Source of the DNA: Streptomyces davaonensis JCM 4913 | GTDB lineage: Bacteria > Actinomycetota > Actinomycetes > Streptomycetales > Streptomycetaceae | Assembly (NCBI RefSeq): GCF_000349325.1 | Contig: NC_020504.1 | Span: 5,986,053 to 6,050,052 of the forward strand | Direction: 5' to 3' | Length of the DNA stretch: 64,000 bases | In this document: piece by piece, positions 35,806-45,216 of the stretch | Numbering within the stretch: the first letter of the stretch is position 1 | How the letters are laid out: each line of letters begins with the position of its first letter | Notes under the pieces: model-generated | What the model was told of the DNA's origin: nothing | The model's database searches: none | What the model saw: the letters and a program-made list of their open reading frames with translations, nothing else | Position numbers and translations under genes: made by a program

Positions 35806-36108
35806 ATGGCAAAGATTCCCAGCGCGGCGATCGCCGCGGGCGGGCTCCTCGGCGGGTACGGCGTGGCCCGGTGGACGAAGAAGCGGCCGCTCGGTGGTGT
35901 TGTGCTCGCCGCAGCCGGGGCGGCCGCCGCCAAGCAGTGGCGGCAGCGGGCCGGCGGACCGGCCGCGGGCGCGCTGACGGCCGCGTACGTCGCCGGGTTC
36001 GCCGGGTCCCACCCCCTCGCCAAGAAGGTCGGCGCCTGGCCGGCCGTGGTCGGCGTGGCCGGAGTCGTCGCCCTCGCCTCGTGGGCCGTGGCCGACCGCA
36101 ACGGCTGA
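35806..36108 (+). CDS. Small hypothetical Gly/Ala-rich membrane protein
   Basis: A 100-residue protein with three weakly hydrophobic Ala/Gly-rich segments (AAIAAGGLLGGYGVA, GGVVLAAAGAAAA, AWPAVVGVAGVVALASWAVA) separated by basic stretches. ATG 35806 follows GGAGG. No family recognised. A strong terminator is 11 bp downstream and marks the edge of the accessory island. Confidence 0.7.
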   Translation: MAKIPSAAIAAGGLLGGYGVARWTKKRPLGGVVLAAAGAAAAKQWRQRAGGPAAGALTAAYVAGFAGSHPLAKKVGAWPAVVGVAGVVALASWAVADRNG

Positions 36109-36119
36109 TTCAAGAGGAT

Positions 36120-36154
36120 CGGCCACCCCACGGGAGCTAGTCGTGGGGTGGCCG
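36120..36154. terminator. Strong hairpin at the island boundary
   Basis: CGGCCACCCCACG (36120-36132) and CGTGGGGTGGCCG (36142-36154), perfect 13-bp stem with a 9-nt loop. Confidence 0.87.
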
Positions 36155-36408
36155 CATGCTTCTTCCGGTCATCAGTACCTCGTGGTTCGCGAAGAGCGAG
36201 CCCAGGTCGAACCGCCGTCGGATCGACGCTGTCCCCACCGCGCCTGGGTGAGGATCCACTGGGCCCGATCCTCATCATGGGCACGCCCTCCGAGGCTGTG
36301 CGCCAAGCGCCACAGCACCTCACCGTCGCTGCTCTCGTCGACCATGGTGACGACGGGCCCTGATCGTGAGAGCGATCGAGTCACTGAGCTGACGCGTATG
36401 GTGCCGCT
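36155..36408. other. Gap without a convincing gene
   Basis: A minus-strand frame from ATG 36345 to the stop at 36172 would give 57 residues beginning MVDESSDGEVLWRLAHSL, placed downstream of the DUF397 gene in the same direction. It has no recognised domain and a poor ribosome binding site. It may be a remnant or a real small gene of the whiJ-like set. Confidence 0.35.
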
Positions 36409-36603
36409 TCACCGGAGCAAGTGATCTGCCTTGCCTGCCTTGATGTTGAGGATCATGGTGCGCAGGGCCTCTCGACTGTCCGTGATGAATCGATCCTCCT
36501 GGCCGTGCACTGCTATGTAAGCGTTGCCGTCTTCGTCGACCCCTATTCGGAAGCATGCATTGCCTTCCCCGCAGAAGGGCTCTTCCCACTGGATCTCGCG
36601 CAT
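36409..36603 (-). CDS. DUF397-like small protein (whiJ-locus type)
   Basis: A 64-residue acidic protein: EEPFCGEGNACFRIGVDEDG, ITDSREALRTMILNIKAG. The Gly/Cys-containing middle, the DS..., and the closing helix fit the DUF397 proteins that accompany XRE regulators in Streptomyces. It starts 7 nt after the XRE stop on the same strand. In whiJ-type loci the small protein is thought to act with the DNA-binding partner; here this is by analogy. Confidence 0.75.
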   Translation of the reverse strand: MREIQWEEPFCGEGNACFRIGVDEDGNAYIAVHGQEDRFITDSREALRTMILNIKAGKADHLLR

Positions 36604-36610
36604 GACGCCC

Positions 36611-37462
36611 CTAGAGTTCGCGTGCGATGGTGCGGATCAAGTCCCTTGAGTCGTCAGGGGACAAGGTGAGTTCTTCCGTTCGATCCAATTGGGCACGATA
36701 CTTGGCCAACTCGGACTGGCCGTGCAGGAAGTCCGGGCCGTGAGAGTTGTCGATCTGCACTGTGTCCAAGCGTTCCGCGGGACCTTCCGCGTACAGCACA
36801 GTCTGGCCTGCACCAGGGAATGCTCCCCGGACGAAGGGCACTGCCAAGACCGTCACGCTGGGCCGTTCGGACTGGTTCAGCAAGTGCTGAAGTTGCTCAC
36901 GGGCCACCCGACGCCCTCCGAACTGCATTCGGAGCGCAGCCTCATGAACAATGGCGATCAAGGGGGGAGGGGCATCACGGCGCAGAACCTCCTGGCGATG
37001 GCTACGATGCGCAGCCCTCATCGCCACCTCGTGTTCCGGTAGGGGTGGAAGGACGGCCCGAAACACCGCTAACGCGTGGTCCGTTGTCTGCAACAGTCCC
37101 GGAACATGCACCGTGGACGCCACGCGCATGCGAGTGGCCCGCGCCTCCAACTCTGCGATGTCTAGAAGGCCTTGAGGAAGAGATCCGCGGTACTGATCCC
37201 ACCAGCCCTGGTTGCCGGCCGAGGCCATGTCGACCAACGCATCGACATACTTCTCATCGTGGCACTGGCAGTGGTGAGCCAAGGTGCGTAGACGCGCCTC
37301 GCTGATGTTCCGAACCCCGGACTCCATGTTGGAGATCTTTCCTCGGTCGACGCCGAGGAGGTTCGCTGCCTGCTCTGCTGACATCCCTGCGGCTACCCGC
37401 ATGCTGCGCAACTCATGACCCAGGCGCTTCTGGCGCTGACTGAGGAGTGCCTTCGGGGACAT
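36611..37462 (-). CDS. XRE-family regulator (WhiJ-like, HTH + DUF5753)
   Basis: A 283-residue protein from ATG 37462 (MSPKALLSQRQKRLG). The HTH spans about residues 14-60 (LRSMRVAAGMSAEQAANLLG and GKISNMESGVRNIS). The rest is the DUF5753 ligand- or partner-binding region: QGLLDIAELEARATRMRVAS, VPGLLQTTDHALAVFRAV, HEAALRMQFGG, VTVLAVPF and LDTVQIDNSHG. A TTA leucine codon occurs at 37070-37072 (residue 131), making translation depend on the bldA tRNA. Divergent from the HATPase gene. Confidence 0.9.
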   Translation of the reverse strand: MSPKALLSQRQKRLGHELRSMRVAAGMSAEQAANLLGVDRGKISNMESGVRNISEARLRTLAHHCQCHDEKYVDALVDMASAGNQGWWDQYRGSLPQGLLDIAELEARATRMRVASTVHVPGLLQTTDHALAVFRAVLPPLPEHEVAMRAAHRSHRQEVLRRDAPPPLIAIVHEAALRMQFGGRRVAREQLQHLLNQSERPSVTVLAVPFVRGAFPGAGQTVLYAEGPAERLDTVQIDNSHGPDFLHGQSELAKYRAQLDRTEELTLSPDDSRDLIRTIAREL

Positions 37463-37532
37463 GCCGTTCCTTCCGGTGTGCGTTGAGCGGCAGTCTGCCG
37501 TGTCTTCCATGCCCGAACCACGATCGAGCTAT

Positions 37533-37553
37533 TTTGCCGAAGTAGATGGCAAA
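37533..37553. promoter_or_regulatory. Candidate operator of the WhiJ-like regulator
   Basis: TTTGCC (37533-37538) and GGCAAA (37548-37553) form a perfect inverted repeat with a 9-bp spacer in an AT-rich patch between the divergent XRE and HATPase genes, 71 bp upstream of the XRE start. Typical place for autoregulation. Confidence 0.5.
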
Positions 37554-37731
37554 TTTACCTCAGCATCTCTACGTTGAGTATCGAGCTGCTCACGTGCAGC
37601 GAGCGGAAGTGCATCGTGCAGGCTTGTCGGCCTCTCCTGCCCTGGGAGCGGCGAGCCTGTGCCAGGGAGACAGGCCACTGCTTGCTGGGGATGACGGGTG
37701 GCGTGGATCGACTGAGTCAAGGAGGCCGCAC

Positions 37732-38397
37732 GTGAACCACGACAACTGCGTACCCCGCAAAGGGTGGGAGGTTCCCTTTCGGGCCACTCCGAGAGAGGTG
37801 CCAGCTCTGCGTCGGATCATGCGCCTGCATCTCACGTACTGGGGACTGCTCGATGTGCTGGAGAACGCTCAACTCTGCGTCACTGAGTTGGCCACCAACG
37901 TGGTCAAGCATGTGGGGTTAGGCGTTCCCGCCGTGCTTGCCGTCTGTATGAACGGCACGAAGCTCCATCTGGAAGTGCAGGACCCACATGCGGACGCGGT
38001 CCCGACACTGGACTCTGCAGGAACTCGCGACGAGGGAGGCCGTGGTCTCACGCTCGTTGATGCGATGTCGGAGAGATGGGGCGTGCGCCGTACATCTGTA
38101 GGGAAGGCGACGTGGTGCGAGCTGGCCACAGCGCTCACGTCCCCACATGGGCATGTGCAGGACCACCGCGTTTCTCGCGCTGACGGGTTGCTGTCCTCGT
38201 ACGACGCCCATGCCGCCTGCTTCACGGGGGCGGGCACGAGCATGGCAACCCTCGATCAGGCGGCCAAGGGTGCCGCGAGCCTGATTGTCGATCTCCTGTA
38301 CTGGACTCAGGCTCACGGACTTGATCCCGATTCGCTGCTCGAAGAAGCGCAGGGGTCCTTCGAAGAACTTCGCTCGGGCGCCACCGATGAACTTTGA
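37732..38397 (+). CDS. HATPase-domain (anti-sigma-factor-like) regulator
   Basis: A 221-residue protein from GTG 37732, preceded by AAGGAGG (37719-37725). Residues 10-140 form a serine-kinase-type ATPase fold: VPALRRIMRLHLTYW, LCVTELATNVVKHVG (N box with catalytic-type Asn) and GGRGLTLVDAMSERWGV (G box). The C-terminal 80 residues match nothing I know. A TTA codon at 37918-37920 (residue 63) suggests bldA control. Divergent from the XRE gene; such an ATPase is a standard member of whiJ-like loci. Confidence 0.87.
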   Translation: MNHDNCVPRKGWEVPFRATPREVPALRRIMRLHLTYWGLLDVLENAQLCVTELATNVVKHVGLGVPAVLAVCMNGTKLHLEVQDPHADAVPTLDSAGTRDEGGRGLTLVDAMSERWGVRRTSVGKATWCELATALTSPHGHVQDHRVSRADGLLSSYDAHAACFTGAGTSMATLDQAAKGAASLIVDLLYWTQAHGLDPDSLLEEAQGSFEELRSGATDEL

Positions 38398-38683
38398 TGA
38401 GGACGGAGAGTTGGAACCTGCCAGCGCGTTCAACATCGGCTGGCGCGATCCGGATTCGCTTCGAGTGCTGTGTGAGGTTGCCGGGGAGATCGGACTCCTG
38501 GACGGGGTAGAGGTCGTGCCGCTCGCAGTTGATCCCACAAGGAGCGAGTTGGAGCCTCCTGAGGGTGTGATCGGGATCGGGGCTGCTCATCATGTGTTGG
38601 GATGCCTTGCCGAGATCGCGCGGCGCACCAGAGCTGGACTGGGCAAGTACACCTGGTTGCGGTCCGACCTGTGGTGGCCCTAA
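38387..38683 (+). CDS. Hypothetical protein coupled to the HATPase
   Basis: A 98-residue acidic protein; ATG 38387 overlaps the HATPase stop by 11 bp, suggesting translational coupling. No membrane segment, no domain recognised (LRVLCEVAGEIGLLDGVEVV, GVIGIGAAHHVLGCLAEIA). Its stop overlaps the stop of the convergent SRA-like gene. Confidence 0.6.
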   Translation: MNFDEDGELEPASAFNIGWRDPDSLRVLCEVAGEIGLLDGVEVVPLAVDPTRSELEPPEGVIGIGAAHHVLGCLAEIARRTRAGLGKYTWLRSDLWWP

Positions 38684-39711
38684 GCGGGTATGGGGCAATT
38701 CAGGCAGCGGAAAGGTTGTGGTGTGCTGCTTGGGGACGTGCCTATCTGAAACTCGGAGAAGCCCCCGCTGTCGTTGCGGTACACGAGGCCGATCCCGTGT
38801 TCGGCGAGCAAGTCGCGGAGATCCATATCGGGAAGGGCCGGGGCCAGAACCATCAGGTGCAGCGGCTGATCGTGAGGGATCTCGTTCAAGTAGCGGCGTG
38901 CACGTAGGAGTTGAGCTAGAGCCTGAGTGATTGACTCGCTCGCAGCGGTGCTTGTCGGCTCATACACGGTGTTGTTCGCTGGGTTGTACAGATCGAACAT
39001 GAGCCGAGAAGTTGAACTCCGCATCGATACGTCTAGTTGACCAATCGTTTCCCCACTTGCGGTCTCGCGCTCTTCGAACGCATCCGCCAGATCATCGCGG
39101 GCTGCTGCTACCTGATCGACGTCAGTCTGCGGCCGCCGTTCGCGGATTCGACGTCGAGTCGCTCGGGTGTAGCGGCCTGCGGTTCGGCTGAACCCCAGCC
39201 GGGAATGGGGTGCTCGGTCGAGAGTGTCAGACGCCTCCCGTATGTAGCGGCCGATAGGGCGTAGCCGGAAGACGATGACGTCGCGGTCGTTGCCCAACTC
39301 ATCTTTGGCCTCGCGTATCTCGAACGGCTTACGCTCGTCGAGTTTGAACATCCCGATGTACCTGTGCGTCCGTGTGTCGCTTCCAGGAACCTTCCCCACG
39401 GCGACGAATAGATGCAGGGTGCGTCCCATCCTGGCGTGGTCCAGGATGGATAAGTTGCCGCCTTCAAAGGCCTGGTTGCCCTGTTTACCTGTTCCGGTAT
39501 AGGTGAATACGGGCCCGAGGTCGTCATCTTCGGCCATCCATCCATCGCGATATCCGAAGCGCTTTCCGACCTTGCTGTCGGAGAAAATGAGAACGTTGCG
39601 CTTCTCCACTGCGGGACAGATTCCAGCAAATCCGGCGCCACCAAGCAGGGGGTGGATCTGCTTACGCGTCAGGATGTCACCGGGCTGGAACCCGGAGGGG
39701 GCTGTCGTCAT
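38680..39711 (-). CDS. SRA/YDG-like DNA-reader protein with degenerate PD-(D/E)XK half
   Basis: A 343-residue protein. Residues 8-125 resemble the SRA/YDG-like N-terminal part of actinobacterial modification-dependent endonucleases: PGDILTRKQIHPLLGGAGFAGI, GYRDGW, VFTYTGTGKQGNQAFEGGN and GRTLHLF. A basic linker (residues 170-192) follows. Residues 230-300 look like a PD-(D/E)XK core (Asp240 in LMFDLY, Glu251 in TVYEPT, then ITQALAQLLRARRYL), but Thr253 stands where Lys is expected. A TTA codon lies at 39451-39453 (residue 87). It probably binds modified DNA; cleavage is doubtful. Confidence 0.6.
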   Translation of the reverse strand: MTTAPSGFQPGDILTRKQIHPLLGGAGFAGICPAVEKRNVLIFSDSKVGKRFGYRDGWMAEDDDLGPVFTYTGTGKQGNQAFEGGNLSILDHARMGRTLHLFVAVGKVPGSDTRTHRYIGMFKLDERKPFEIREAKDELGNDRDVIVFRLRPIGRYIREASDTLDRAPHSRLGFSRTAGRYTRATRRRIRERRPQTDVDQVAAARDDLADAFEERETASGETIGQLDVSMRSSTSRLMFDLYNPANNTVYEPTSTAASESITQALAQLLRARRYLNEIPHDQPLHLMVLAPALPDMDLRDLLAEHGIGLVYRNDSGGFSEFQIGTSPSSTPQPFRCLNCPIPA

Positions 39712-39811
39712 GTGCTGAGGCTAGTGCGTTCACTGTTCGTGGAGTGTGACAGGTGGTGCAGTCGTCCGGAAGGTCGTTGTGGCTGTGCCTGGCTCGGGCG
39801 AGGATGGTGCG

Positions 39812-40387
39812 ATGGGTGAGGCAACGGGGACGATCGTCGCGGCTGGTATTGCGTTTGCATCCGCAGTCATTGGGGCCGTGATTGCTGGTAGGTATGCCAA
39901 GGGTGGAGCGGAAGCCGGCGGACGTAAGGCAGTTGAAGCCGCTCTAGCCCAGGTGCACGGTCAGGCGGCAGCGGAGCACTGGCAGTGGGTGCGTAGTCAG
40001 CGGCATCAGTCCTTTGCTGCTCTCTTTGCGGCCTATGCCGTACTCGATGAAGTGCTCACTCGCATCGCCCCCGAGGTGAGAAGCGGCGGTGGACTTGATG
40101 CTGCGGCAAGGCGGGAGTTGGGCGACGGCACGCTTGAAATGCAGGCAAAAACCAGCCAATTGGCACTCTGGGGGCCAAGCGAGGCAAACGAACTGGCCTA
40201 CGCGCTGACGGAGGGGGCGATAGCGGCAGTGGCCTCCTTGCTGGCGGTAGCGAGCGCGAGCCCTGAGAACATGAGCGCAGTTTGGTTCCGCTTCGCCCAA
40301 GCCAAGGAAGAGATGGCGCAAGCTCATGCGGCCTTCCTCCAGAGGGCTGGAGAAATCGTGCGCGATCCACAACAGCCGGTCAGTTAG
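39812..40387 (+). CDS. Hypothetical membrane-anchored protein in the island
   Basis: A 191-residue protein from ATG 39812. Residues 5-28 are one membrane helix (GTIVAAGIAFASAVIGAVIAG, read in part), followed by a basic turn (RYAKGGAEAGGRKA). The remaining part is cytoplasmic and helical, with SQRHQSFAALFAAYAVLDEVLTR and FAQAKEEMAQAHAAFLQRAG, probably a coiled bundle. No family recognised. It is convergent with the helicase gene (17 bp between stops) and divergent from the SRA-like gene. Confidence 0.65.
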   Translation: MGEATGTIVAAGIAFASAVIGAVIAGRYAKGGAEAGGRKAVEAALAQVHGQAAAEHWQWVRSQRHQSFAALFAAYAVLDEVLTRIAPEVRSGGGLDAAARRELGDGTLEMQAKTSQLALWGPSEANELAYALTEGAIAAVASLLAVASASPENMSAVWFRFAQAKEEMAQAHAAFLQRAGEIVRDPQQPVS

Positions 40388-40404
40388 CGGATTCTCGTCG
40401 TTGG

Positions 40405-43400
40405 CTACCCCGCAGTGATCGCCGAGTACGACCACACATCCGCAGGCAGTTCGTGGCGCAACTGCCAGGTGATGGCCATGGGCTTGCTGCCCTTGTGCCG
40501 GACGTAGGTCGCCGGGCCGAGCAGCATCCACGGTTGGGCCTTGCCGATGTCGGTGTCCTTGTAGCGTCGCATGAACATCAGCACATGGCTTCCGCGTTGA
40601 GCGTGCTGCTGGTAGCGCAGCCCGGTGGGTGAGGTCTCTGCGGTTGTGCTCTGCGACTCCCAGTGGAAGAGGGAAGGACTCAGCGCGTAGTCCTTGTAAC
40701 GGACGGTGGGTGAGAAGTCCTTCTCGTTCTTTTCGAGGGTGATCAGCAGCGAATCCGTCTGGTTGCGCTCATCCCACAACACGCCCTGTGCAAAGGACCC
40801 AGGCATCTGGCCACCGAGCCGGGCGACACCTAGCGCGGCGAGGATCTCCGAGCGGTTGTACGCGCTGTGGATTTTGAGAGGTATGTGTGCGTGCGGGCCA
40901 TCGAGCTGGATGGGGAAGTGGTCGGCCTGGCCCATCACATGCTCAAGCACCTGCCGTAGTTCGCTGCGAAGGGCCCGCTGCACACGGAGCGAATCGAGCC
41001 CTTCCGCGTACGAACTGAAACCGCCAGCCTTGTCCCAGAGATTGAAGAACAGCATGCGGGCGAATGTCTTGTCCCGCGGATTCAAGGACTCGTAAGTGGG
41101 CGCGTCATCGCTCAACAAGCGAGCGTAGGCCTCGGCGCGTTCGAGGTCATCCACGTGCAAAAACGCATGCACTCGCTTCAGTAGGTCTTCCTCGCCGGCT
41201 TGTTCGGGTAGGTCAGTCATGCTGGCTCGACGGAGGACGGAAGTCCATGAGTTGCTCGACTTATACAACTCCCGGATCTCACGGCGACTCTCCTTGAGGT
41301 AGTCGGCGAGGAGGGGCGTATCAAACGCCTTGACTTCCTTAGCGAGGGTCTGAACGTTCGCCTTGATCTGGGTGCGGATGTTTTCCAGCACCAGGTCCTT
41401 GGACTTGCCTTCGAGGATGATCTGGCAGCCCGATGGCAGCAACGGAAAGTCGTGCTCAGCGTGCTCAAGGAGCCGGTTACGCGACAGGTTCGTCATCGCG
41501 CGGAACTGCTCCTCGAACCTGAACTCGGCACGATGCTGGCCGATGAAGTCGAGCACCGTGAGCACAGGCTTGTCTGGCGTGCGGCGGAGACCCCGACCGA
41601 GCTGCTGAAGGAAGACGGTGGCGCTGCTCGTCGGGCGCAGAAGGAGCAGCGTATCGACGTCAGGGATGTCCAAGCCCTCGTTGAAGAGGTCTACCGAGAA
41701 GATGACTTGGATCTCGCCCGCCTTGAGCTGGGCCAGCACCCGATCACGGACCTCGGGCTTTGACTCGCTATCCAAGGCCGCAGCCTTGAGGCCTGCGCTC
41801 TCGAAGCACTGCGCCATGAAGTGAGCGTGCTTCCTACTGACACAGAAGCCAAGTGCACGCATGCTCATCGGGTCGGAGACCTTGTCCCGCACCTGTTTGA
41901 GGACGATGCGTGCGCGGGCGTGGTCGGCGGAGAACAGCTCACCAAGTTGGCTCTGGTCGTACGTCCCCGAACGCCAGTTGAGGCGTCTGAGGTCCGTGCC
42001 GTCAGGCAGGCCGAAGTAGTGGAAGGGACAGAGGAGGTCGTTGTCGAGTGCCTCCCACAGTCGCATCTCGGCGGCGATCCGCCCGTCGAAGAACTCGTCC
42101 TGAACGTTGAGACCGTCCGCGCGTTCCGGAGTTGCGGTCAGCCCCAGGAGCTGCTTCGGCTTGAAGTGGTTGAGGACGCGGCGGTACGTCGTGGCGGTGG
42201 CGTGATGGAATTCGTCTACGACGATGATGTCGAAGTGCTCTGGGTCGAACTGGTCCAGCCGCTGGTCAGTGAGAGACTGGACGCTAGCGAAGACGTGCTT
42301 CCAGTCGCGCGGTAGTTCACCGCTGAAGAGAACTTCCCCGAACGACGCGTCATCGAGTACTTCGCGATACTTACGCAGGGACTGCTTGAGAATCTCTTTG
42401 CGGTGTGCCACGAAGAGGAGCCGCGGGTACTGCTTGCCGCCCAACTGCTTGTGTAGGTTTCGGTAATCGAGGGCGGCCATAACGGTCTTGCCCGTACCAG
42501 TCGCGGCGACAAGCAAGTTGTGGTGGTGACCTCGGACTTCGCGTTCGACATGCAGTCGCTCCAGCATGTCGGCCTGATGCGGGTACGGCCGAACTTCAAG
42601 ACCGGAGAGGCTGATCTTGAAGTCTTGTCCAGCTGTCGAACCACCTGCGACGCCTAGAGCCTCGTCCAACTTGAGTGCGTCGCGATCCGGGTCGTAGAGC
42701 TCAAAGGCGATGTCGTTCCAGTAAGCGTCGAAGGTGGCCTCGAACTTCTTGAGCACCACTGGAGTGGCCACTGAAGATAGGCGTACGTTCCACTCCAGTC
42801 CGTCGAGTAGTGCGGCCCTTGAGAGGTTGGAGCTACCGACGTATGCCGTATCGAAGCCGCTCTTGCGGCGAAACAGCCAGGCCTTTGCGTGAAGGCGTGT
42901 CGAGCGGGTCTCGTAGTTGACCTTCACCTCAGCGCCGAAGTCGCGAACGAGTCGGTCGAGCGCATGGCGGTCGGTTGCGCCGATATAGGTGGTTGTAATG
43001 ACGCGAATTGGGACGCCTCGTTCCTTGGCGGCGCGGAGAGAGTCCTCAAGCACCCGTAGCCCGTACCACTTGACGAAGGCGCAGAGTAGATCGATGCGGT
43101 CTGCGGTGGCGAGCTCAGCGCGCAGCTCACTGCCGAGGCTCGGGTCCTCGGGAGAGTTGGTGATGAGGGCGGTCTCCGAGAGGGGAGTAAGCGGGCGTAT
43201 CGCGTAGACGCCAGGGGCTTCCTTCTCAGCCAGTGCCAAAAGCTGGCGAGGTCCATCGGCGATGAGCTCAACACCATCACTCGAGGCGAGTGACTCGATG
43301 ATCTGGTTGGCTGCGGCGACGCGCTGGTCAGGGGGTAGCTGGCTGAGTCGATGGCTCACAGCCCGTCCGATGTGGCGGGCGATTACATGGGGTGATGATT

Positions 43401-43554
43401 CCTCGCTGACTTCGTCATCGATGGCCTTCCAGCCCGCTGCATTCAGCTGCTGCATCTGCTCTTGCATGCGTTGGGTGACGAGTTCCTCGTAAACACCCGC
43501 GACAGGCTGCGACAGATCCCCCGGCAGAGCCACGCCGTATCCCCAATCCCTCAC
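40405..43554 (-). CDS. PLD-nuclease / superfamily 2 helicase / DUF3427 protein
   Basis: A 1049-residue protein, GTG start at 43554. Residues 125-290 are a phospholipase-D-type nuclease domain: His222 and Lys224 in RLHAKAWLF, Asn243 in YVGSSNLSRAAL. Helicase motor 1 starts near 322 (RPYPHQADML) with Walker A ATGTGKT at 351-357, VAHRKEI, DEFHH at 447-451 and GLTATPERADG. Motor 2 has FSVDLFNEGLDIPDVDTLLLLRPT and QQLGRGLRR. The C-terminal 350 residues fit DUF3427 (FPIQLDGPHAHIPLKIHSAYNR, then GVLWDERNQTDSLLITLEK). Members of this family are suspected of phage defence. Likely cuts and unwinds nucleic acid. Confidence 0.9.
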   Translation of the reverse strand: MRDWGYGVALPGDLSQPVAGVYEELVTQRMQEQMQQLNAAGWKAIDDEVSEESSPHVIARHIGRAVSHRLSQLPPDQRVAAANQIIESLASSDGVELIADGPRQLLALAEKEAPGVYAIRPLTPLSETALITNSPEDPSLGSELRAELATADRIDLLCAFVKWYGLRVLEDSLRAAKERGVPIRVITTTYIGATDRHALDRLVRDFGAEVKVNYETRSTRLHAKAWLFRRKSGFDTAYVGSSNLSRAALLDGLEWNVRLSSVATPVVLKKFEATFDAYWNDIAFELYDPDRDALKLDEALGVAGGSTAGQDFKISLSGLEVRPYPHQADMLERLHVEREVRGHHHNLLVAATGTGKTVMAALDYRNLHKQLGGKQYPRLLFVAHRKEILKQSLRKYREVLDDASFGEVLFSGELPRDWKHVFASVQSLTDQRLDQFDPEHFDIIVVDEFHHATATTYRRVLNHFKPKQLLGLTATPERADGLNVQDEFFDGRIAAEMRLWEALDNDLLCPFHYFGLPDGTDLRRLNWRSGTYDQSQLGELFSADHARARIVLKQVRDKVSDPMSMRALGFCVSRKHAHFMAQCFESAGLKAAALDSESKPEVRDRVLAQLKAGEIQVIFSVDLFNEGLDIPDVDTLLLLRPTSSATVFLQQLGRGLRRTPDKPVLTVLDFIGQHRAEFRFEEQFRAMTNLSRNRLLEHAEHDFPLLPSGCQIILEGKSKDLVLENIRTQIKANVQTLAKEVKAFDTPLLADYLKESRREIRELYKSSNSWTSVLRRASMTDLPEQAGEEDLLKRVHAFLHVDDLERAEAYARLLSDDAPTYESLNPRDKTFARMLFFNLWDKAGGFSSYAEGLDSLRVQRALRSELRQVLEHVMGQADHFPIQLDGPHAHIPLKIHSAYNRSEILAALGVARLGGQMPGSFAQGVLWDERNQTDSLLITLEKNEKDFSPTVRYKDYALSPSLFHWESQSTTAETSPTGLRYQQHAQRGSHVLMFMRRYKDTDIGKAQPWMLLGPATYVRHKGSKPMAITWQLRHELPADVWSYSAITAG

Positions 43555-43634
43555 ATAGCAGTGGCTCTGTTGTAGCAGGCGGCTCTGACACTTCGCAGCG
43601 CGCGGCTGTCGGACTCCGCTGTTTTCATGGAGCC

Positions 43635-44102
43635 ATGACCAGTAAGAGTGTCGTGGTTGAGCGGCGTATTGCAGCTGCTCAGGGTGCGGTGTGGGAAGCC
43701 CTAACCGACCTACAAGGCATGCAGCGCGTCCTGAGCGGTGTCTCGAAAGTCGAGGTTCTCTCGGACGGGAGTTTCGGGGTGGGCACCCGTTGGCGCGAAA
43801 CCCGGCGGATGTTCGGGAAGGACGCCACCGAGGAGATGTGGGTGACCGTCTGTGAGGCGCCCGAGCGGTATGTCGTGGAGGCTGAGTCCCACGGTACGCA
43901 CTACACCTCCGAGTGGGGCCTGCGTGCGGACGGGCCGGTGACGACTACCGTCCGCATGACGTTTACGGGGACTACCTCCGGGGGCGGGGTCATGGGCGTG
44001 CTGGCCAAGGTGCTGGGTGGGGTGGGTGCGCGGGCGGTCAGTAAGGCCATTGCCAAGGATCTTGAGGACGTGGCTGCCGCTGTTGAGGGGCGTGCCGGGT
44101 GA
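43635..44102 (+). CDS. SRPBCC-family protein
   Basis: A 155-residue START/SRPBCC fold: VVERRIAAAQGAVWEALTDL, the KVEVLSDGSFGVGTRWRETR strands, WVTVCEAPERYVVEAES, and the long C-terminal helix (VSKAIAKDLEDVAAAVE). Binds a hydrophobic ligand or acts as a polyketide/aromatic-type enzyme; ligand unknown. It marks the return to the usual high GC. Confidence 0.85.
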   Translation: MTSKSVVVERRIAAAQGAVWEALTDLQGMQRVLSGVSKVEVLSDGSFGVGTRWRETRRMFGKDATEEMWVTVCEAPERYVVEAESHGTHYTSEWGLRADGPVTTTVRMTFTGTTSGGGVMGVLAKVLGGVGARAVSKAIAKDLEDVAAAVEGRAG

Positions 44103-44134
44103 GCTCCGGTTCCCCCAGCTGCTCGGCTACTCGG

Positions 44135-45148
44135 TTACTCCGACCCGTGACACGACCCGTACTCCCGGCCCGAACCGCACCAACACACCGCGCCCCGCTG
44201 CGGCGGCCACTCCACCGCCCGCCCCCGCGCCGCCAGCGTCGTCGCGTACTGCGGCAGCAGCGACACCTCGCCCGGTGACATGGCCTCCGACGCCGCGAAC
44301 GCCTCGTACGACGGGACCGTCCCCGTCACGATGCCGAGGTTCGGGGTGCCCGAGGAGGACAGCTCTCGAAGTGACGCCTCTATCGTCGACAGGTGGGTGG
44401 CGTGGGACGGGTACTCGTCCGCGAGGGTCGGGTACGCCTCCAGGAGTTCCGTCAGTTCCGGCTCCGGCCAGTGCAGGACCGCTACCGGGAACGGGCGGGA
44501 CAGGGCCTCGCGGTAGGCGCCCAGTTCCGCTCGGAGGCGGCTGATCTCCGCCTCCAGTTCCGCCGGGTTGTTCGAGCCTAGGGACCAGACGCGCTTCGGG
44601 TCGTGGAGCTCGTCGAGGGAGACCGGGGAGGAGTGCAGCGTGTCCGCCAGCATGTCCCAGTCGTCGTGTGCCGCGCCCAGCATCCTGCGTACCCGGTGGC
44701 GGCCGTACAAGAGGGGGTGCGTCGAGTACGGGGGCTCCGGTACGTCCGTCAGGAGCAGGCGTACTCCCTCCGTGAACGTCTCCTGCGCCGCCTCCAGCTC
44801 GTCGTGTGCTTCCAGGGCCTCCGCCACGATCACCCAGGGCGCCGGGTCCCGGGGTGCCGCCGCGCGGACGCCGTCGATGATGGCTCGGGCCTCCGCCTCG
44901 TGGCCGTACTCCCAGAGGTTCGCGGCCTTCAGGGACCTCACCAGGTGGGGGTGGTCCAGCGAGGCGGGGGACGACAGCAGGCGGTCGTAGAGCGTGGACG
45001 CGGCGGGGCGGGCGCCGGCCAGTTCCAGGTGGGCCGCGGCCCGCAGGAGCAGGGCTTCGGCGTCCTCGGGGTACAGGCCGGCGGTCCGCTCCAGGCGTGC
45101 CGCTTCGGCGTTGTGGTCGACGTTCTCGGCAGGCGTGTCGGGGCGCAT
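44135..45148 (-). CDS. TPR-like protein with C-terminal SEC-C zinc motif
   Basis: A 337-residue protein from ATG 45148 (MRPDTPAENVDHN). Residues 15-150 are helical-repeat-like (AARLERTAGLYPEDAEALLLRAAAHLELAG, in parts; then LKAANLWEYGHEAEARAIIDG). The end is VCWCGSGREYGSCHG, a SEC-C motif: CxCxSGxxxxxCH, which binds zinc and in SecA contacts SecB or ribosomes. Middle is Leu/Glu-rich. Function unknown; convergent with the SRPBCC gene. Confidence 0.8.
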   Translation of the reverse strand: MRPDTPAENVDHNAEAARLERTAGLYPEDAEALLLRAAAHLELAGARPAASTLYDRLLSSPASLDHPHLVRSLKAANLWEYGHEAEARAIIDGVRAAAPRDPAPWVIVAEALEAHDELEAAQETFTEGVRLLLTDVPEPPYSTHPLLYGRHRVRRMLGAAHDDWDMLADTLHSSPVSLDELHDPKRVWSLGSNNPAELEAEISRLRAELGAYREALSRPFPVAVLHWPEPELTELLEAYPTLADEYPSHATHLSTIEASLRELSSSGTPNLGIVTGTVPSYEAFAASEAMSPGEVSLLPQYATTLAARGRAVEWPPQRGAVCWCGSGREYGSCHGSE

Positions 45149-45216
45149 GAGGGACACCGTACTGCGGGGGCCCGGCGAGCGTGAGATATGCGCAGACCAG
45201 GCGCCCCGGGGGGAGA

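Follow-up and report, generated by a model that had tools for sequence, protein, structure and literature searches.

A SauUSI-type restriction locus of Streptomyces davaonensis with a predicted nuclease-dead SRA companion and a closely linked membrane gene

The closest described system is SauUSI of Staphylococcus aureus, in which a PLD nuclease, an SF2 ATPase and a C-terminal recognition domain of SRA type lie in one chain. This C-terminal region is reported to be an SRA fold reading m5C and hm5C (PMC7913695), and the single polypeptide is described as sufficient (PMC3874153). Binding of modified DNA had been a predicted role of DUF3427 before (PMC7159879). A Streptomyces member, ScoA3I/Sco2863 of S. 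coelicolor, is tabulated with in vivo restriction of m5C DNA in PMC3874153, and is termed 'unverified, SauUSI-like' in PMC6212794. Other relevant SRA proteins are the MspJI family, with an N-terminal SRA-like and a C-terminal PD-(D/E)XK domain, and the SRA-HNH enzymes TagI and ScoA3IV, which carry an HNH nuclease domain.

Our window, the whole stretch of 64,000 nucleotides that was analysed, comes from the 9.56 Mb, two-contig genome assembly of Streptomyces davaonensis JCM 4913, and its best named homologues are from Streptomyces. A preliminary description had pointed to three neighbouring genes in DNA of lower GC content, and all three are indeed open reading frames, inside DNA of 60-64% GC that extends from about 36 to 44 kb of the window (Table 1). 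They encode a SauUSI-type enzyme of 1049 residues, an SRA companion of 343 residues and a probable membrane protein; the membrane gene sits between the other two and is transcribed rightward, in contrast to its leftward neighbours. The open frame of the membrane protein begins at 39746; since most of its listed homologues are 191 residues long, the ATG at 39812 fits as the start, which leaves a head-to-head gap of 100 bp to the SRA gene, and from this gap we infer a promoter in common. Unlike SauUSI, for which a single polypeptide is described as sufficient, the enzyme here is encoded next to an SRA companion and a membrane gene.

Table 1. Features of the locus and of its flanks, in window coordinates.
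Feature	Position	Strand	Basis
Predicted SauUSI-type ATP-dependent type IV restriction enzyme, 1049 aa	40405..43554	-	PADLOC PDLC03659 mREase_IV; PDB 7clg
PLD nuclease domain, aa 170-279, H222 and K224	42718..43047	-	Pfam PLDc_2 E 9e-12; HxK conserved
Single SF2 motor, two RecA lobes, aa 321-657	41584..42594	-	Pfam ResIII E 9e-38, Helicase_C E 9e-15
DUF3427, predicted SRA-fold target-recognition domain, aa 891-1043	40426..40884	-	Pfam E 4e-19
Companion, SRA and apparently inactivated PD-(D/E)XK, 343 aa	38680..39711	-	AlphaFold2 model, homologues, motif alignments
SRA domain of companion, aa 4-161	39229..39702	-	
PD-(D/E)XK-like domain of companion, aa 204-323; D240, E251, T253 replacing Lys	38743..39102	-	
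Probable single-pass membrane protein, helical body, 191 aa	39812..40387	+	91 homologues; helical model
Intergenic region between divergent SRA and membrane genes	39712..39811	.	ORF coordinates
XRE-DUF5753 regulator	36611..37510	-	Pfam, neighbour survey
HATPase (anti-sigma-like)	37546..38397	+	Pfam HATPase_c_2, neighbour survey
SEC-C/TPR-like protein, flank of variable site	44135..45190	-	site comparison; 88/111 genomes
Conserved 100-aa protein, other flank of variable site	35806..36108	+	site comparison; 88/111 genomes

Judged by its sequence, the 1049-residue protein very probably belongs to the SauUSI type of ATP-dependent type IV restriction enzymes and has an SRA-type reader of its own, DUF3427. 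The PADLOC match (1723 bits) covers residues 105-1046, and the best solved relative is SauUSI itself (7clg, E 1.1e-84), to which the phmmer alignment spans nuclease and motor, with a second, weak stretch in the C-terminal domain (residues 931-1018). Every part of SauUSI, namely PLD nuclease, SF2 motor and SRA-type recognition domain, is present with its motifs intact: across 113 aligned enzyme sequences H222 of the HxK motif is kept in all and K224 in 112, while the Walker A lysine, the DEFH motif and the first two arginines of motif VI are kept in all 113. In the 7clg alignment, with residues counted by hand, D955 and W965 fall opposite D858 and W868 of SauUSI; they are conserved in 112 of the 113. 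By its published description (PMC3874153), ScoA3I/Sco2863 would share this architecture; from SauUSI the enzyme differs by about 100 extra N-terminal residues. By analogy with SauUSI, it most likely cuts m5C/hm5C DNA in an ATP-dependent manner. Pfam bears out the PLD, helicase and DUF3427 domains of the preliminary description, the helicase being a single motor with two RecA lobes. The remark there that no named system with this set is known is not supported, the PLD-SF2-DUF3427 protein being of the SauUSI family. An unnamed PLD-helicase system was rejected on the PADLOC and 7clg matches.

The AlphaFold2 model of the companion (pLDDT 87.7) and its structural alignment give an SRA domain followed by a PD-(D/E)XK fold, the same domain order as in the MspJI family; the alignment to MspJI follows its chain, at an rmsd of 14-17 because the domains sit differently. 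Unlike the MspJI family, the companion has no catalytic lysine: an intact (D/E/Q)xK active site is missing, and the motif reads E251-P-T253, with Thr253 in the place of the lysine. Paired relatives also lose D240 (to E, G, A or T) and E251 (to Q), two homologues (P0108 and P0112) have Gln instead of the lysine, and among 11 aligned members of the window's companion clade there is no conserved lysine in the motif region. Based on these alignments and the model, the companion is an apparently lapsed nuclease, which keeps its SRA fold and has lost its own nuclease lysine and, in some relatives, the acids too. In the SRA part of the family, W58, Y71 and T72 do not vary over 57 rows, and 90% or more of these rows have E61. 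By their spacing these residues are candidate counterparts of the flipped-base pocket (aromatic, carboxylate, YTG) of TagI; an hhalign comparison of the companion SRA with SRA-HNH proteins is weak (probability 25%). In contrast to ScoMcrA, the companion has no HNH match in Pfam (the copy used did not report PF26348, the ScoMcrA-like SRA), nor did a sulfur-binding domain turn up among its Pfam matches, and where TagI and ScoA3IV carry an HNH nuclease domain it has a PD-(D/E)XK domain that appears to have lapsed. Searched against PDB sequences, profile A2 gave no solved-structure match at E 0.1. A Phage_capsid_4 match in Pfam was rejected as weak and below cut-off, the residues covered being mostly those of the PD-(D/E)XK-like part.

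For the membrane protein, Pfam, PADLOC and NCBIfam all came back empty, and a Foldseek search with its model gave nothing below E 0.07. This model, with one N-terminal helix and a helical body, has a mean pLDDT of 80.6, falling below 60 across most of the first 40 residues; we read the sequence as a first helix that probably crosses the membrane, with the body inside. A chance open reading frame was rejected on a median dN/dS of 0.20 (96 pairs) and on the presence of the gene in 39 loci (the window included, and the samples overlapping), each of them with an SRA gene lacking the lysine.

Across 392 genomes of the genus, the SRA family was found in 70 (E 1e-10) and the SauUSI-type enzyme in 117 (E 1e-100); the best five SRA and best two enzyme candidates were scored per genome, so that second copies may be missed, and the SRA profile also takes in proteins that match in the SRA part only. 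By our own count of the lists 40 genomes have both genes, which lie within 3 kb on one contig in 20 of them; in G317 the two genes are split over two contig ends, and G373 was kept apart from the 20. Some 21 of the 117 enzyme-bearing genomes thus have a companion adjoining the enzyme gene, and since the enzyme has its own reader and is without a companion in most genomes, the companion would be dispensable for basic function. The lysine is absent from 15 of the 21 paired rows (the 20 pairs and G317) as against 2 of 45 unpaired ones, a count that sets aside one SRA-HNH protein (L147) and one lysine-less row (L079); the intact motif in the other six paired rows means that pairing does not force the loss. 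Two unpaired SRA relatives without the nuclease motif, L135 and L136, come from genomes without a SauUSI-type gene at E 1e-100. Class-wide, 27 of 394 genomes have the SRA family; 24 were checked for the enzyme, of which six match at E 1e-20 and two are paired (G670 and G638), one of these loci being lysine-less with the membrane gene and the other having an intact motif, and all 16 unpaired regions examined keep the lysine.

The linkage was also examined in 79 named loci, of which 27 are lysine-less, 51 keep the lysine and one, a fragment without the second domain (L359), was left out of the counts. Every lysine-less locus has the membrane gene, and in 25 the enzyme gene is 687-2754 bp away, the contig ending first in the other two, which answers the earlier proposal of a conserved co-occurrence of SRA and PLD-helicase genes in the affirmative. 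The membrane gene is in none of the 51 lysine-keeping loci and the enzyme gene is in the flank of 8, some of these flanks being short (for instance L313, L318, L328, L353 and L354). In the loci examined, the membrane gene occurs only with the lapsed SRA form; both this restriction and the lapse of the nuclease had been missed in the earlier reading. The 392-genome and 79-locus samples overlap (L286 is G049, for example), and their counts must therefore not be summed.

The dead nuclease domain and the membrane gene are both under purifying selection at a dN/dS of about 0.2; for the companion the medians are 0.11 in the SRA domain and 0.20 in the dead domain (55 pairs). On a tree of 124 rows, pruned of near-identical rows and of 28 named ones including L079 (L137-L139, L141 and L147 having been left out of an earlier tree), pairing changes state at least seven times and the active site three times, gain and loss not being distinguished. 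A single clade for all paired rows was rejected (p 2.7e-8), while the two dead paired clades as one group were not (p 0.059), both in a hand-chosen subset of 45 rows. Loss of the lysine in the paired clades is compatible with one or two events, and because a single shared loss is not rejected, the tree is no proof that pairing drives the loss; an independent-pair test of this dependence gave p 1, having no power with so few independent events. The dead clades differ in their motif letters (E-P-T as against S-V-R or A-I-R), which suggests, short of proof, two separate losses.

Gene arrangement varies by clade, from an enzyme gene, an antisense membrane gene and an SRA gene to a tight run of enzyme then SRA, an SRA-then-enzyme order with an antisense DUF6602 gene between, an SRA gene directly before the enzyme gene, and a divergent order. 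This variety favours repeated pairing, a possible alternative history being that pairing was gained once and then lost repeatedly. In G207 (L056, L092) the enzyme is 90% identical to that of the window and its partner belongs to the other dead clade, a mismatch that points to partner exchange.

The SauUSI-type enzyme is of an already known kind; what is new is the nuclease-dead SRA partner with its closely linked membrane gene. Among the matches listed in open-licence PMC, we found no description of a SauUSI-type enzyme paired with a nuclease-dead SRA protein. We favour, with a probability of about 0.5, a type IV enzyme that has a dedicated, non-cutting second reader and the membrane protein as a partner. 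The enzyme would bind modified cytosine through DUF3427, hydrolyse ATP and cut DNA carrying two sites, as the biochemistry of SauUSI implies; the 343-residue protein would bind modified DNA without cutting it, and may help, gate or widen the target choice of the enzyme; and the membrane protein, encoded head-to-head with it, would work as its partner, perhaps tethering it to the membrane. The idea of a modification-dependent defence locus with an SRA reader beside a PLD-helicase is supported. The accompanying division of labour, in which the reader binds and the PLD-helicase destroys, is not required, as SauUSI already has a reader with an SRA fold in its own C-terminal domain. A stronger form is a two-reader, membrane-anchored type IV system: the dead SRA and the membrane protein would make up a membrane-bound sensor of modified DNA, and when modified phage or plasmid DNA comes in, this sensor would load the motor-nuclease onto it or license its action there. 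This form is speculative and we think it unlikely.

The main rival, which we regard as rather doubtful, is that of independent layered defences, in which the genes are together only because type IV modules accumulate at this site, the SRA protein working by itself. The locus lies in a variable Streptomyces chromosomal site (window 35806-45190; compare loci L362-L381) between the 100-residue gene and the gene of a protein that we presume to be of the SEC-C kind, a relative of which has a weak TPR match. Each flank gene is found in 88 of 111 genomes; site rows were picked by eye for both flanks on one contig, as in 70 genomes, and in 66 the flanks are within 60 kb (spacing 194 bp to 58 kb). These 66 sites have the enzyme between the flanks in 25 cases, elsewhere in one and absent in 40, a tally of absence that includes G082, G093 and G100, whose matches are weak or incomplete (E 5e-33 to 4e-35). 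Other type IV genes do share the site without known co-operation: SRA-HNH (11), MrcB_N with a PD-(D/E)XK-like tail (7), GmrSD (5) and Vsr (4) gather beside the enzyme gene in 113 loci, which include two from the class search (L185 and L186) and three from other genera, and Vsr (10), SRA-HNH (3) and MrcB_N (3) recur at 20 sites hand-chosen from the 40 without the enzyme. Examples beside the enzyme gene are L258:3311-4321, L253:7826-8941, L245:8440-10443 and L215:4024-4500. The gene counts at the 113 loci and the 20 sites are lower bounds, as the automatic gene caller picked up no copy of the membrane gene and overlooked some SRA genes (L084, L185).

Against this rival, the companion SRA family was seen at the site in the company of the enzyme gene alone: it is found at none of the 20 enzyme-less sites, in agreement with the genome-wide SRA matches, and the SEC-C flank accompanies none of 106 unpaired SRA loci (many of other genera and with limited flanks), as against 30 of 38 and 5 of 5 loci of the two dead paired clades; of the other paired loci, 8 of 15 have it. 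The 100-residue flank had no tblastn match in any of these loci, so that site membership rests on SEC-C within the fetched flanks; even so, the site alone does not explain the pairing. In Spongiactinospora (L327) the SRA and enzyme genes are 28 bp apart and none of the tested flanks was found. Moreover, a lone restriction enzyme would not be expected to retain a dead nuclease domain under selection.

The dead SRA protein could instead act as a brake or in self-protection, covering modified cytosines of the host or inhibiting the enzyme, so that methylation, native or acquired, would not kill the cell. A competitor of this kind would be expected to look like a dead copy that has kept its reader, and m5C is reported in S. 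coelicolor (PMC10148868), but most SauUSI-type genes have no dead SRA partner of this sort, and we hold this role to be improbable. That the PD-(D/E)XK domain still cuts through other residues, as an unusual active enzyme, is very improbable: such enzymes with a moved lysine are known and the fold is predicted confidently, but the losses of D240 and E251 in paired relatives and the want of a conserved lysine in the 11 clade members speak against it.

Should the second-reader interpretation be true, a restriction nuclease would have turned into a regulatory subunit, which makes a testable case, and some type IV enzymes would rely on a second reader, perhaps with their action at the membrane; SauUSI is described as self-sufficient. 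The poor uptake of methylated plasmid DNA by some Streptomyces may also be related to it.

Some further features of the relatives may be recorded. The companion clade of the window has a conserved C-x-x-C-P tail at the C-terminus, absent from the five lysine-keeping and the two Gln homologues of the motif alignment. In another paired clade an antisense gene, placed like the membrane gene of the window, lies between the SRA and enzyme genes (L086:7867-8712, L087:8321-9166, L088:6090-6935 and L084:6586-7449); the L086 copy is a DUF6602 gene with a NucC-like PADLOC match (E 9e-21). The second dead clade has, in four of five loci, a third gene of about 320 codons (cluster c40) 3' of the SRA gene (L090:8813-9790, L089, L091 and L092), the L090 copy being without a Pfam or PADLOC match. 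Finally, the XRE-DUF5753 and HATPase pair (window 36611-38397), sometimes with DUF397, lies close to the enzyme gene in a majority of the 113 loci, the XRE-DUF5753 family neighbouring it in 69 and the HATPase family in 66, and its position relative to the SRA gene varies among relatives.
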